Below are positions 40,445 to 44,772 of a DNA stretch of 46,869 nt, piece by piece. The notes below the pieces were generated by a model. That model saw only the letters and a program-made list of their open reading frames with translations, was not told the DNA's origin and ran no database searches. The stretch comes from an uncultured Saprospiraceae bacterium (GTDB lineage Bacteria; Bacteroidota; Bacteroidia; Chitinophagales; Saprospiraceae): contig CALBWK010000073.1 of assembly GCA_937969415.1 (NCBI GenBank), positions 1 through 46,869 on the forward strand. The letters are read 5' to 3'. The translations under genes and the position numbers were made by a program. How positions within the stretch are numbered: the stretch's first letter is position 1; every line of letters starts with the position of its first letter.

Positions 40445-40942
40445 TTATTTTAGACATTTAAAATAATCAAAGGGCTCTAGACAATCTTCACACTGAAAGA
40501 GCGCCTTACAAGCAGTAGAACCAAACTGGCTAATCATTTTTGTATTTGTGGATTTACAATTGGTACATGCAATAAGTCTTTCTCCATCGATGAGTGCTCG
40601 CTTATCCAAGGAATCAGAAAGTGGAGCAGCAACCCCATATTCCTCCAACTTACGTCTACCCTCTTGTGAAATCCAATCCGTTGACCAAGCGGGAGAGAGC
40701 ACAAGTTTTATTTCCGTTGCGTAACCCGCTTTCTGCATCGCTATATCTATATCGGCAGCCATTGTATCCATCGCAGGGCAACCGGAATAAGTCGGCGTCA
40801 ATTCGACAAATACTTTTTTATTTTCCTCACGAACTGCCCTCACCACACCTAAGTCTAAGACTGTCAATACGGGTATCTCAGGATCAGAAACTGATTCTAA
40901 TATTTTCCTTAGTTCAAGATCTATGATTGGCTGATTGATAAT
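40445..40942 (-). CDS. paaD: phenylacetyl-CoA epoxidase assembly protein PaaD, start codon non-canonical
   Basis: PaaD is a MIP18/DUF59-type Fe-S protein needed for the epoxidase. The conserved N-terminal part (LRKILESVSDPEIPVLTVLD) is in frame and intact, followed by TPTYSGCPAMDTMAADI and a C-terminal zinc-ribbon-like CTNCKSTNTKMIS ... CKALFQCEDCLEPF. No ATG, GTG or TTG occurs between the in-frame TAA (40960-40958) and the TTG at 40867, which lies inside the conserved motif. Using that TTG would delete the DPEIPV region. I extend the gene to ATT at 40942 as one of three adjacent possible starts (ATA 40945, ATT 40942, ATC 40939); an A-rich run lies just upstream. A sequence error is the alternative. 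Confidence 0.8.
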   Translation of the reverse strand: MINQPIIDLELRKILESVSDPEIPVLTVLDLGVVRAVREENKKVFVELTPTYSGCPAMDTMAADIDIAMQKAGYATEIKLVLSPAWSTDWISQEGRRKLEEYGVAAPLSDSLDKRALIDGERLIACTNCKSTNTKMISQFGSTACKALFQCEDCLEPFDYFKCLK

Positions 40943-40978
40943 TATTAGTTTTTTCTTTTATGAGTGATTACAGTTTGA

Positions 40979-41731
40979 CTACCATTCCATTTGTGGATAG
41001 GTTCTTTGCATATACTGCAGCTCATTCAAAATATAACCCATATGCTCAGAATGTATTCCAGTTTTGCCCTTCACAACTCGGGGAGCGGATTCTGGCATTG
41101 ACAATTCTGCCTCTATCAATACTTCTTTAACTTTTGAGTAAAAGTCTTCCTTGAAAGTCTGTAAATCAGGACCAATACCTTCTTCATACATTTCCTTCTC
41201 AATTGCTGTCATCACAAAGAACTCGTCAGCAAAAGGTAATAGATGATTTACAGCTGCTTGAATTCTGGCTTTACTTTCTTCTGTTCCGGCACCTAAGCGC
41301 TTCATCCAGGATGTAGAAAATCGAAGATGATATCTAGTCTCCTTAATAGACTTTGCCGCTATAGCTGCGATGCGTTCATCAGCACTATTCATCAATGCTG
41401 GTGTCATAAAACTCTGGAACATATCATAAAGAAATTGTCTGACAATAACATGACCAAAATCCTCATTGGGCTGCTCTACAAGAACGACATTCAAATAGGT
41501 TCTCTCTTTTCTTAAAAAAGCAATTGTATCTTCAGAAACTTCCTCTCCTCCCAATTCTGCTGCGTATTGAAAATAACTCCTTACCTGGCCATAGAGATCC
41601 AAAGAAATATTGGTCAAAGCAATATCCGTCTCTAAGCTCGGCCCGTGCCCACACAACTCAGACAAACGATGACCTAAGATCATAGCATTATCCCCCAGCA
41701 TCATCAGATACTTTGTCAATTGTTCGTTCAT
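40979..41731 (-). CDS. paaC: 1,2-phenylacetyl-CoA epoxidase structural subunit PaaC
   Basis: The 250-aa product is a helical ferritin-like protein with the PaaC pattern: GDNAMILGHRLSELCGHGPSLE near the N-terminus, ALTNISLDLYGQVRSYF, NEDFGHVIVRQFLYD, and IKETRYHLRFSTSWMKRLG. It pairs with PaaA to form the core of the multicomponent oxygenase that epoxidises phenylacetyl-CoA; PaaC itself lacks the catalytic di-iron site. It starts one base after the paaB stop, so translation is coupled. Confidence 0.93.
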   Translation of the reverse strand: MNEQLTKYLMMLGDNAMILGHRLSELCGHGPSLETDIALTNISLDLYGQVRSYFQYAAELGGEEVSEDTIAFLRKERTYLNVVLVEQPNEDFGHVIVRQFLYDMFQSFMTPALMNSADERIAAIAAKSIKETRYHLRFSTSWMKRLGAGTEESKARIQAAVNHLLPFADEFFVMTAIEKEMYEEGIGPDLQTFKEDFYSKVKEVLIEAELSMPESAPRVVKGKTGIHSEHMGYILNELQYMQRTYPQMEW

Positions 41732-41732
41732 C

Positions 41733-42023
41733 TTAGATATGTTTTAGCTCGATAGGTAGATCATAGAAAGTCGGATGTCGGTAGACCTTATCCTTAGCTG
41801 GTTCAAACAATTCTCCTGCTTGCTCGGGGTTAGATGCGTGTATATTTTTAGATTCTACAACCCAAATACTAACGCCTTCTTGTCGACGTGTATAGACATC
41901 TCTAGCATTCTCAAGAGCCATCGTCGGATCTGCAGCGTGGAGGCTACCAGCGTGGCGATGCTCGAGACCATTTCTTGATCTGATAAAGACTTCGAAGAGA
42001 GGCCATTCTTTTTTGTTACTCAT
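41733..42023 (-). CDS. paaB: 1,2-phenylacetyl-CoA epoxidase subunit PaaB
   Basis: The 96-aa product matches PaaB in length and sequence: WPLFEVFIRSRNGLEHRHAG, SLHAADPTMALENARDVYTR and IWVVESKNI. It bridges PaaAC heterodimers in the oxygenase. Its ATG is preceded only by pyrimidine-rich repeat DNA of the neighbouring cassette (42027-42220), so its native upstream sequence and ribosome site seem to have been replaced. The next paa gene upstream, paaA, is separated from it by the four-helix-bundle gene. Confidence 0.93.
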   Translation of the reverse strand: MSNKKEWPLFEVFIRSRNGLEHRHAGSLHAADPTMALENARDVYTRRQEGVSIWVVESKNIHASNPEQAGELFEPAKDKVYRHPTFYDLPIELKHI

Positions 42024-42026
42024 TTT

Positions 42027-42220
42027 GTGGAAGGGTTTAAAGGTTTAAGGGTTTAAAGGTTTAAGGGCTTAAAGGATTAAAGGTTTTTTGAAGGGTTCAA
42101 AGGGTTCAAAGGTTTAAGGGTTTAGAGGATTTAATGGCTCAAACGACGTTTAAACTTTTTCACCTTTACACCATTATTCCTTTTGACCTTTACCCCCTTT
42201 TATTCCATTGTTCCTTTACA
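42027..42220. repeat. AAAGG/CCTTT short-unit repeat tract with opposed halves
   Basis: On the plus strand 42029-42140 is built of imperfect 8-10-base units such as AAGGGTTTAAAGGTTT. From about 42150 to 42220 the composition flips to units such as CCTTTACACC and CCTTTTGACC. The two halves are roughly inverted, meeting near TTTAAACTTTTTC at 42149-42161, and could fold into a long imperfect hairpin. The tract joins the 3' end of the four-helix-bundle gene to the start of paaB. Confidence 0.7.
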
Positions 42221-42223
42221 CCT

Positions 42224-42592
42224 TTATTTCTTTTCCCAAAGTTTTCTTGCTTCTATAAGTTTATAAAGTGCTGCCGAAATTTGCTTTGCACTATTAATTA
42301 AATTATCTGCTTTTGCAGTTTCAATAACTCCAATTTCTTTAGCTATGATAAGCTGAGTAATTAATTCCGCTGACGATCCTTTTGCAATGTACATATGGCT
42401 TATTCCGTGCTTAACAGTTTTTAGCTCATCTCCTTCAGCAATATTTGAAGAAATAGAGACTGCTGCACTAGAGAGCTGACTTGAAAACCTAAAATCCTTT
42501 TTTAAACTTTCGTTTTCTCCAATTACTTTATACACTTCAACAGCTAAGTTTTTTGCTAATTTCCAAACGTGTAATTTTTGAAAATCTCCCAT
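42224..42592 (-). CDS. four-helix-bundle protein (S23 ribosomal / IVP type)
   Basis: The 122-aa product matches the four-helix-bundle family first described from 23S rRNA intervening sequences: LHVWKLAKNLAVEVYKVI, then SSQLSSAAVSISSNIAEGDE, then YIAKGSSAELITQLIIAKEIGVI, and a C-terminal helix with LYKLIEARKLW. The SNIAEG and AKGSSAEL motifs are diagnostic. It is related in fold to Avd of diversity-generating retroelements, but no reverse transcriptase is nearby. Function is unknown. It starts 6 bases after the paaA stop and is in the operon's orientation, so it is probably co-transcribed with the paa genes. Repeats flank it on both sides, and its last codons run into the repeat tract. Confidence 0.9.
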   Translation of the reverse strand: MGDFQKLHVWKLAKNLAVEVYKVIGENESLKKDFRFSSQLSSAAVSISSNIAEGDELKTVKHGISHMYIAKGSSAELITQLIIAKEIGVIETAKADNLINSAKQISAALYKLIEARKLWEKK

Positions 42593-42598
42593 TACTTA

Positions 42599-43582
42599 CT
42601 AAGCTATTTTTCCTTTAGACCTTTGAACCTTTATACCTTCAGACCTTTCCCCACAATTAGACCTTTTCTCGCTATAGGCGAGCGCTGCATCTCTTACCCA
42701 TTGTCCATCATCCCAAGCTTTTTGTCTTGCTGCTATTCTTTCTTTGTTGCACGGACCGTTGCCTTTTACAACTTGCCAGAACTCATCCCAGTCTATAGCA
42801 CCGAAGTCATAATGACCACGTTCTTCATTCCACTTAATTTCTGGATCAGGCATCTTCAGTCCTAAAAACTCTGCCTGAGGTACTGTAATATCCACAAACT
42901 GCTGGCGGAGCTCATCATTGGTTTTTCTTTTAATCTTCCACGCCATCGACTGCTTGGTGTTAGGAGAGTCTTCATCTCTAGGGCCAAACATCATCAGTGA
43001 TGGCCACCAGGTTCTATTGAGTGCATCTTGTGCCATTTCTTTTTGCTCTGGCGTACCATTACAAAGAGTGAGCATAATCTCATAACCTTGACGCTGATGG
43101 AAACTTTCTTCTTTACAGATTCTGACCATCGCTCTCGCATAAGGACCAAAAGATGTTCTAGTCAACATCACTTGATTGATAATTGCTGCACCATCTACTA
43201 ACCAGCCTATTGCGCCTATATCCGCCCAGGTCAACGTAGGATAATTGAATATACTCGAATACTTGGCTTTGCCGGTGAGTAGCTGCTGTGTCATCTCATC
43301 TCTAGAGATGCCTAGAGTCTCTGCAGCACTATATAGATATAGGCCGTGGCCAGCTTCATCTTGTACCTTAGCGAGTAAGCCCAACTTACGCTTCAGCGAG
43401 GGTGCTCTTGTTATCCAGTTACCTTCAGGCAACATCCCTACTATTTCTGAGTGGGCATGCTGAGAGATCTGTCTGATATGTGTCTTCCTATATTTCTCTG
43501 GCATCCAGTCCTTAGGCTCGATCTTTTCTCCTGCGTCAATACGTTCTTGAAAGCGGGCGGAGAGATTTTCTATGTTATCCAT
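42599..43582 (-). CDS. paaA: 1,2-phenylacetyl-CoA epoxidase catalytic subunit PaaA, with repeat-derived C-terminal tail
   Basis: The 327-aa product is the di-iron catalytic subunit: iron-ligand motifs DEAGH (ExxH) in [20 protein letters not shown] and [11 protein letters not shown] (ExxH). It also has the conserved end [20 protein letters not shown] and [15 protein letters not shown]. coli PaaA is about 309 aa. Here the last 20 residues (308-327, [17 protein letters not shown] core) are the in-frame translation of the purine repeat at 42602-42660. The original stop appears to have been lost at the cassette boundary. Core catalytic residues are intact. It lies 119 bases downstream of paaE. Confidence 0.95.
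42602..42660. repeat. AAAGG-type repeat overlapping the 3' end of paaA
   Basis: On the minus strand the region reads as units GGTCTGAAGGTATAAAGGTT and CAAAGGTCTAAAGG, of the same kind and orientation as those just downstream of the four-helix-bundle gene (42160-42222). It is translated as the PaaA tail. Confidence 0.7.
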
Positions 43583-43701
43583 TATTTATGCAGTTTAGCA
43601 ATTATAGATTCAACAATTATTATCAATGTTCGGTTTTACGTTTTACAGTATAAGATTTGAGTTATTTCTAATTAACTTTTGGTCTTACACATACTCTCTT
43701 A

Positions 43702-44772
43702 TTAAGCATCAAAATCTACTACGACTTTCTCCGTAGTCGGTAAAGCTTGGCAAGTCAATATATAGCCATCAGCTATCTCATCCTCCTCTAGTCCATAAGC
43801 AACGGCCATTTCAACTTCTCCTTCTAATAGTTTTGCTCTACAAGTACTGCAGACGCCTCCCTTGCATGCATACGGTAAGTCAGCAGCATTATTGAGGGCA
43901 GCATCTAAGAGATTATCCCCACCCATTGCCACTTCAAAATCCATACTCTTACCGCCCTCAATTAAGGTGACACTACAGGTCTTTCCATCTAACTTTTTCT
44001 TCAGTTCCTGACTGATAGGCTTGGCCGCGCCACTTGCCGTAAATAGTTCAAAATGAATCTTATTCTTTTCAACAGACTGCTCTTCCAGAAAATCCTTAAT
44101 CAGGAATATCATTGCTTCTGGGCCACACAGAAAGTAATCATCTATCTTAGTTGTATCACAAATAGTCTTGAAGATCACGTCTAACTTCTCCCTATCCAGT
44201 CTTCCATTAAAAAGTTCTACAGATCTATTTTGACGTGTCAGAAAATGGAAGATTTCAAAGCGTTCCATATATTGATTCTTCAATGCTTCTAATTCTTCCT
44301 TGAGTATAATGGACGACACTGTCTGATTGATATAAAACAACTTAAAAGTCGCTTTGGGCTCTGAAAGCAAATGCGTCTTGATTATAGATAGCATCGGTGT
44401 GATGCCTGATCCTGCAGCAAAGCAGACATAATTCTTCTGGGATTCCTTGTTGATATCTACATAGAACTTACCTCCTGGTGGGAGGCTTTCTAGAGTATCT
44501 CCGACTTTGAGCTCTTGATTGGCGTAGGTAGAAAACTTCCCCTCAGGCACCTGCTTGATACCAACTTGCAATACCTCATCCAAAGGTGAAGAACATAAGG
44601 AGTAAGACCGCTGTACAGATTCTCCCTTTATCTCAGCCCTTAGGGTCAAATACTGCCCTTGCTTGTAAGAGAAGTTGGCTAGTTCTGCGGGGTTAGGCAC
44701 AAGGCTAACGATGACACAATCATCAGTAGTCTTAACTAGCTCTGCAACGGTTAACTTATAGAACTTTGTCAT
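43702..44772 (-). CDS. paaE: 1,2-phenylacetyl-CoA epoxidase reductase subunit PaaE
   Basis: The 356-aa product passes electrons from NADPH through FAD and a [2Fe-2S] cluster to PaaA. It has an FAD-binding barrel (about 5-105; RSYSLCSSP), an NAD(P)-binding region (about 110-225; FAAGSGITPMLSII and DYFLCGPEAMI), and a plant-type ferredoxin domain (about 265-356) with cluster ligands C303, C308, C311 and C341 (YACKGGVCSTCRAKL and ILTCQA). It is the first gene of the paa operon here, and its upstream region carries a perfect inverted repeat overlapping a likely promoter. Confidence 0.94.
   Translation of the reverse strand: MTKFYKLTVAELVKTTDDCVIVSLVPNPAELANFSYKQGQYLTLRAEIKGESVQRSYSLCSSPLDEVLQVGIKQVPEGKFSTYANQELKVGDTLESLPPGGKFYVDINKESQKNYVCFAAGSGITPMLSIIKTHLLSEPKATFKLFYINQTVSSIILKEELEALKNQYMERFEIFHFLTRQNRSVELFNGRLDREKLDVIFKTICDTTKIDDYFLCGPEAMIFLIKDFLEEQSVEKNKIHFELFTASGAAKPISQELKKKLDGKTCSVTLIEGGKSMDFEVAMGGDNLLDAALNNAADLPYACKGGVCSTCRAKLLEGEVEMAVAYGLEEDEIADGYILTCQALPTTEKVVVDFDA

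Follow-up and report, generated by a model that had tools for sequence, protein, structure and literature searches.

The window analysed here is a stretch of 46,869 nucleotides from an uncultured Saprospiraceae bacterium (contig CALBWK010000073.1 of assembly GCA_937969415.1), whose draft genome, G000, comprises 3.84 Mb in 255 contigs and is 95.1% complete. Towards its end, the phenylacetate genes paaA and paaB are separated by a gene encoding a four-helix-bundle protein (4HB), with all three genes on the minus strand. The 4HB gene is enclosed by arrays of short repeats, and the features are as follows, in the sense of transcription:

42599..43582, minus strand: paaA, the upstream neighbour (PaaA profile match)
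42606..42666, minus strand: 5' arm (element sense), an 8-bp array of AAGGTCTA/AAGGTTCA type within the end of the paaA coding sequence
42224..42592, minus strand: 4HB gene (S23/IVP, PF05635/TIGR02436; profile matches), 122 aa, the ORF of the element
about 42157..42236, minus strand: inner block of the 3' flank, AAGG-type on the minus strand, near the 4HB stop
42031..42134, minus strand: outer 3' arm (element sense), CCTTTAAA-type on the minus strand, the inverted counterpart of the 5' arm
41733..42023, minus strand: paaB, the downstream neighbour (ORF and profile match)

A preliminary description of this DNA had placed a four-helix-bundle gene between paaA and paaB, and both the profile scores and the ORF positions bear this out. 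The ORF scores 94.2 bits with PF05635 (cut-off 33.8) and 94.2 bits with TIGR02436 (cut-off 24) in profile searches; both scores exceed the curated cut-offs and place it in this family, and the protein has a relative of solved structure (2GSC, E 4.5e-7). The AAAGG-type repeats described on both sides, reaching the start of paaB and the inside of paaA, are present too, but their unit is 8 bp long (AAGGTTTA/AAGGGTTT), the arms are inverted and the paaB side is in two parts. TRF reports one array at 42031-42134 (period 8/16, score 105) and another at 42612-42648 (period 8, score 46). The outer arms are mutually inverted (42039-42076 against 42611-42648, 79% complementary), and the flank on the paaB side is a composite of the outer arm and an opposite-sense inner block (about 42157-42236), which is partly complementary to that arm. 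The PaaA profile matches residues 11-299 of 327 and the array at 42612-42648 lies inside the 3' end of paaA, whose final 28 codons, past the profile match, are mostly array. At the other end, 7 nt separate the outer 3' arm from the start codon of paaB. Because the arrays extend to the gene ends, no target duplication is definable at this copy. The inverted flank score is 19.5, the highest value in 114 control genes being 12.5, and the RNA fold of the unit has a z of -3.5, with none of 20 shuffles as good. The paaA-4HB-paaB architecture with inverted 8-bp arrays is thereby confirmed.

The same genome has one other PF05635 match, on contig C199 (locus L002), between genes that read, from their translations, as aldehyde-dehydrogenase-like and extradiol-dioxygenase-like and that lie on the same strand. 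Its arms are of CATAGTTC type before the 4HB gene and inverted after it. The flanks of the two copies are therefore related in plan and different in word, which gives no support to a fixed AAAGG insertion signal: since the C199 copy keeps the plan with another word, the plan is the common factor and the AAAGG word is not. The site can be followed in four congeners, where the two arms switch word jointly: it is TAGTTCA in L002 and L117, a mixture in L122 (whose downstream neighbour is truncated by the contig end) and TAGATAA-type in L102.

Arrays also occur in this genome apart from 4HB genes: AAGG arrays lie on six other contigs with no 4HB gene. Across 590 kb of G000 (the window plus 40 stretches, three of them picked for holding arrays), arrays reach the cut-off in 2 of 236 gaps of 80-1200 nt, namely on C17 and in the window. 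This is a lower bound, because a known array on C234 was left unscored and contigs C12 and C14, with CATAGTTC-type matches, were left out; both array gaps lie in stretches already known to hold arrays. The one on C17 (23913-24213, L011) is a large AAGG/CCTT cluster between two co-directional genes; it contains several inversions but lacks a 4HB gene. On contig C74 (462-742), several CATAGTTC/CATAGTTAAGAG-type arrays lie near one another.

The architecture of a 4HB gene with inverted arrays recurs at unrelated loci in several phyla. TIGR02436 has matches in 52 of 60 genomes (G000 included) among the matches listed. From these we assembled a first set of 92 loci, in each of which an iterated profile finds a single 4HB gene: the two G000 copies and 90 loci from the score-ranked matches listed (30 preset and 60 taken in order), so that weak matches are under-sampled. 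The arms were tested by local alignment of the 200 nt before the gene with the reverse-complemented 200 nt after it, with a cut-off of at least 14; these flank tests used 86 of the 92 loci, or 84 when flanks containing N were excluded as well, and 76 of the 80 loci of a second set. Inverted flanks reach the cut-off at 49 of 86 4HB loci and at none of 114 other genes from the same stretches (Mann-Whitney p 2.7e-19), whereas likeness in direct orientation was found at 13/86 4HB loci and 2/114 controls. The second, named-genome set holds the best 80 of 528 confirmed places and leans to one subfamily, because it was found via one sequence pattern. It is mostly from Bacteroidota and also includes records titled Chlorobi, Omnitrophota, several Patescibacteria, Nitrospira, Anaerolineaceae, Acidobacteriaceae, Fibrobacter, Spirochaetales and others. 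L156 is the same contig as L034, and L162 equals L037 in length and arms; L156 and L162 are both counted among the 80, and only L156 was dropped from the period and wobble counts. In this best 80 of 528, inverted flanks reach the cut-off at 38/76 loci against 10/154 controls, which include genes with arrays. Neighbour genes were called by a simple longest-ORF rule, and some are wrong; they give 48 junction types in these 80 loci, the largest of which (23 loci) is apparently fadJ-fadI, and 27 of 53 loci still reach the cut-off once it is removed. In the two sets, 37/86 and 38/76 loci stay below the cut-off. A 4HB match was also found in 29 plasmid records, ten of which, all cyanobacterial, were analysed: eight reach the cut-off. 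Phage records were searched for a 4HB match and gave none.

The arms are complementary locus by locus, though their words differ between loci. The fit between the left and right arms of the same locus averages 16.1 when the permuted value is 8.7 (sd 0.28; 84 loci), and 14.4 against 8.8 (sd 0.24) in the 76 named loci (from the best 80 of 528); the own right arm is the best partner of all in 34/84 and 27/76 loci. With a search that allowed 4 to 13 nt, the period is 7 in 86 of 110 arrays, 8 in 18, 9 in 5 and 13 in 1, and the window copy, at 8, departs from the majority. Arm polarity relative to the gene is mostly fixed: the 5' flank is G-rich in 56/68 loci and the 3' flank C-rich in 58/68, while G exceeds C in 65/158 control gaps. 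Among loci with a called left array and a same-strand upstream gene, this array starts at a median of 3 nt from the upstream stop codon (at most 15 nt in 36 of 48), and in 13 cases it begins inside the end of the upstream gene. Five loci with broken or short ORFs have a median arm score of 10.5, compared with 15.5 for the other 81. Arrays reach the cut-off at 45/92 and 28/80 4HB genes, but in only 16/127 and 8/169 other gaps, and never in shuffled flanks, which indicates that they are tied, though not confined, to 4HB genes. Gene-less, hairpin-like inverted arrays of short words were seen upstream of hmgA (L155, G060) and upstream of queG (L149 and L151, in G062 and G060).

The paaA-paaB junction itself can be compared within the genus of the window, where 9 of 14 genomes have a PaaB match. 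An intact 4HB gene lies there in G000 and G002, decayed 4HB remnants in G001 and G010, arrays without the gene in G011 and G012, an array cut by the contig start in G013, and no element in G006 and G009. Relatives thus do not all carry the gene at this place without repeats. The idea of a repeat-gene-repeat unit set between operon genes also stands, since both genes stay open and the junction is empty in two relatives. In two further genomes paaA is followed by a 4HB gene and then by the contig end (G007) or by a transposase-like gene (G005); the latter, directly after the paaA-4HB pair (L113) and in the expected place of paaB, we take to be of IS256 type. On the 4HB tree, L001, L059, L106 and L113 cluster, together with L061 of G012. 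This grouping of genus copies suggests that the site is mostly old, and the paaA-paaB copy in this genus looks mostly inherited rather than freshly inserted. The ORF adjacent to L061 (G012, contig C56) resembles the C-terminal portion of another 4HB protein and may mark one insertion stacked on another. 4HB proteins diverge faster than the proteins on either side (for example, 53% identity between L001 and L059, compared with 86% and 87%).

Shared junctions point the same way more generally. Both neighbours are shared by 24 locus pairs, and the seven same-junction groups require 7 changes on the 4HB tree, where the minimum is 6 and the shuffled mean 13.1. Since 7 is so near the least possible, long residence seems to be the rule and vertical descent common. 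Only for paaA-paaB is it shown that 4HB genes arrived separately at the same junction, as this is the one group whose single clade is rejected (L001, L059 and L074; p-AU 1e-4): two or more distinct 4HB lineages have filled it. The six fadJ-fadI 4HB genes, from five families, are split on the tree, and we considered repeated independent insertion there, but one clade of six is not rejected (p-AU 0.157). A single clade is likewise not rejected for L036 and L056 of the window's genus (p-AU 0.517), which may be sisters, or for L039 and L120 (p-AU 0.103).

Evidence of movement comes from genome G031, in which closely related gene-plus-arms units lie at three unrelated places, between genes that read from their translations as hppD- and hmgA-like, pcrA- and queG-like, and aldo-keto-reductase- and hemE-like. 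The proteins are 97% (L054/L079) and 87% (L078/L079) identical, the arms share the word TTAATGG, and the likeness stops at the arm ends. L078 lies on the strand opposite to its neighbours, and contig C5 of this genome carries a further 4HB fragment with stops. With the same plan found at many other places and one piece at three places of one genome, the suggestion of a dispersed cassette is upheld; the cassette idea as a whole largely holds, minus a common AAAGG signal. The near copies are under purifying selection (dN/dS of 0.11 for L054/L079 and 0.07 for L078/L079); three more diverged pairs gave 0.08-0.14 at dS above 1.8, these five being the informative ones among nine pairs, as dS was saturated in the other four. 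The junctions compared yielded neither an exact empty/filled pair, nor a close one, nor a target duplication, and searches with queG, hmgA and hemE for empty versions of the G031 sites met neighbours that are not syntenic in relatives.

The placement of the loci is strongly biased. In the first set, 60 4HB genes are co-directional with both neighbours, 6 opposed, 10 convergent, 3 divergent and 13 without a neighbour; the corresponding counts in the named set (best 80 of 528) are 66, 1, 3, 3 and 7. Seven of the ten plasmid loci are co-directional and three (L312, L313, L314) opposed, antisense between their neighbours. This co-direction fits insertion into operons and is not proof of it, because the genes of an operon are co-directional anyway. 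A tRNA gene lies near one 4HB gene (L118, 2832-2905). In a published table, a 4HB gene between guanylate kinase and nicotinate-nucleotide adenylyltransferase in two Flavobacterium genomes was counted as a phage element (PMC5524665); the site it describes looks like another operon junction.

We conclude, with a probability of roughly 0.7, that the gene and arms seen in the window are a copy of a small mobile element, which consists of a 4HB gene of about 120 aa between inverted arrays of words of 7-9 nt (mostly 7). The unit would insert just behind a stop codon, usually in operon sense, or mainly such insertions would survive. Its arms would serve, as DNA, as inverted terminal arrays able to fold into hairpins, and their likeness may be maintained through template switching or renewed whenever the element moves. 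The 4HB protein would be the element's own nucleic-acid-binding or scaffold protein, with host enzymes supplying the cutting and joining, and array-only sites would be remnants or gene-less derivatives. In profile scans, the window ORF matched only the PF05635/TIGR02436 family and no catalytic domain. A reverse transcriptase was considered as general mobiliser and set aside: RVT_1 (PF00078) has matches in 23/60 genomes and none in the G000 draft (95.1% complete), with the caveats that these are drafts and that other reverse transcriptase families exist. The Y1 transposase (PF01797) was set aside as well; it is found in 46/60 genomes but has no match in the G000 draft, and the flanks of Y1 genes look different.

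The best-surviving alternative, which we nevertheless consider unlikely, is an RNA-level element akin to the intervening sequences (IVS) of rRNA genes, the arms of which pair in the transcript so that RNase III excises the 4HB mRNA, with insertion targeting sense transcripts. The ORF family and the flanking complementary sequences are those of rRNA IVS as given in PMC4990558, the sense bias is strong (60 versus 6, and 66 versus 1 in the best 80 of 528), and the window unit folds well, with the z noted above. Yet selection against antisense insertions would account equally for the sense bias, antisense copies do occur, and PF00078 is absent from G000 and present in 23/60 genomes when 52/60 have 4HB among the matches listed. 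Selection on a stem in sense RNA also finds no backing in the arm mismatches: over 107 loci, those of G-U type in sense RNA number 113 and those of the antisense kind 160, so that the expected wobble excess is absent, although the window unit folds well. This test would favour upkeep of the arms at the DNA level.

A slightly weaker contender, and also an improbable one, is that the heptamer and octamer arrays are independent hairpin-like repeats in which the 4HB gene is a settled passenger or an array-maintaining factor. Array-only sites at paaA-paaB (G011, G012), hmgA (G060) and queG (G062, G060), the AAGG arrays on six other G000 contigs and the arrays in other gaps of 4HB loci (16/127 and 8/169) would all be expected from it. 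It accounts poorly for a similar gene with similar arms at three G031 places, for the mostly constant polarity of the arms with respect to the 4HB gene, and for the greater frequency of arrays at 4HB genes under an equal cut-off (45/92 and 28/80). Finally, it is very hard to credit that this is simply an operon gene passed on by vertical descent, with low-complexity flanks that arose by coincidence: this reading would suit the grouping of genus 4HB genes beside paaA, the clustering of same-junction groups (7 changes versus a shuffled mean of 13.1) and the purifying selection, but not the inverted-flank excess over controls, the own-arm pairing, the series of states at paaA-paaB, the rejected single clade there or, already telling in themselves, the triple copies of G031.

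Taken as a mobile element, the 4HB unit works most like an rRNA IVS, yet it is not one. The IVS with an S23/IVP ORF are described as selfish, with complementary ends, sense orientation, a patchy distribution and a decaying ORF (PMC4990558). The 4HB element likewise has an ORF of this family between complementary ends, as seen in the window copy, is patchy and sense-oriented, and shows ORF decay. Unlike an IVS, the window copy lies outside rRNA, between the protein genes paaA and paaB, and its arms are arrays of 7-9-nt words. An Rfam scan of 40500-44000 gave no match, which places the window copy outside any 16S or 23S rRNA gene, and a further 20 loci, chosen because their neighbours were unusual, gave no rRNA match either.

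The element is neither a REP/RAYT system nor a diversity-generating retroelement (DGR). REP/RAYT systems consist of a Y1 (HUH) transposase gene flanked by REP palindromes. The 4HB element resembles them in that inverted repeats enclose its gene and repeats also occur elsewhere without one; it differs in that the window ORF matches PF05635 rather than a Y1 transposase and that the words vary by locus. The flanks of 28 Y1 genes from the same genomes show palindromes at several loci, not short-word arrays, and 10/28 score at least 14. Y1-transposase genes flanked by palindromic repeats were seen at L244, L253, L255, L256, L262 and L263. The DGR accessory protein Avd is a homologous four-helix bundle, according to PMC10053308, which keeps a nucleic-acid role of the 4HB protein plausible; in contrast to a DGR, the G000 draft (95.1% complete) has no RVT_1 match and hence no reverse transcriptase of this kind. 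Nor does the element have the fixed terminal repeats of MITEs and IS-derived elements, as its words vary from locus to locus and are not the same in the two copies of G000, although the three G031 copies do share one word (TTAATGG).

The arrays themselves have published counterparts. Heptameric simple repeats are reported in Xanthomonas, Nostoc and Calothrix, and TAACTGA repeats in Beggiatoaceae, with heptameric repeats over-represented in bacterial genomes and little explained (PMC4692102, PMC4679880). Like the arrays described here, those reported in these texts are intergenic, 7 nt in period, in part inverted and near gene ends; unlike them, they are described there without a gene, whereas the 4HB arrays hold one. 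The words S23 and four helix (bundle) are absent from the main texts of both papers, and in the open-access literature available to us (closed-access papers being outside this scope) we found no tie of S23/4HB genes to short repeat arrays.

A wider proposal would be a phylum-spanning mobile class without a recognisable recombinase, in which a 4HB gene lies between inverted, locus-specific heptamer arrays behind operon stop codons; the two arms would change their words jointly, and the heptameric repeats long known but unexplained in bacterial genomes would be what is left of the element once the gene is lost. We advance this proposal tentatively, at somewhat less than even odds, and think that the 4HB element has a real chance of deserving its own class. 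On cyanobacterial plasmids, 4HB genes lie between cas6 and cas4 twice and between cas10 and cmr3 once (L311, L317, L318), and 18 4HB genes in cas loci are reported in PMC3936711. This is a warning on guilt by association, as 4HB genes in cas loci may be intruders and not parts of the system. Should the 4HB protein have a role in movement, this would be a case of mobility in an element that encodes no known catalytic domain. The element would offer a common frame for three loose ends: a widespread protein family of unknown function, the excess of heptameric repeats, and the rRNA IVS that carry the same ORF.
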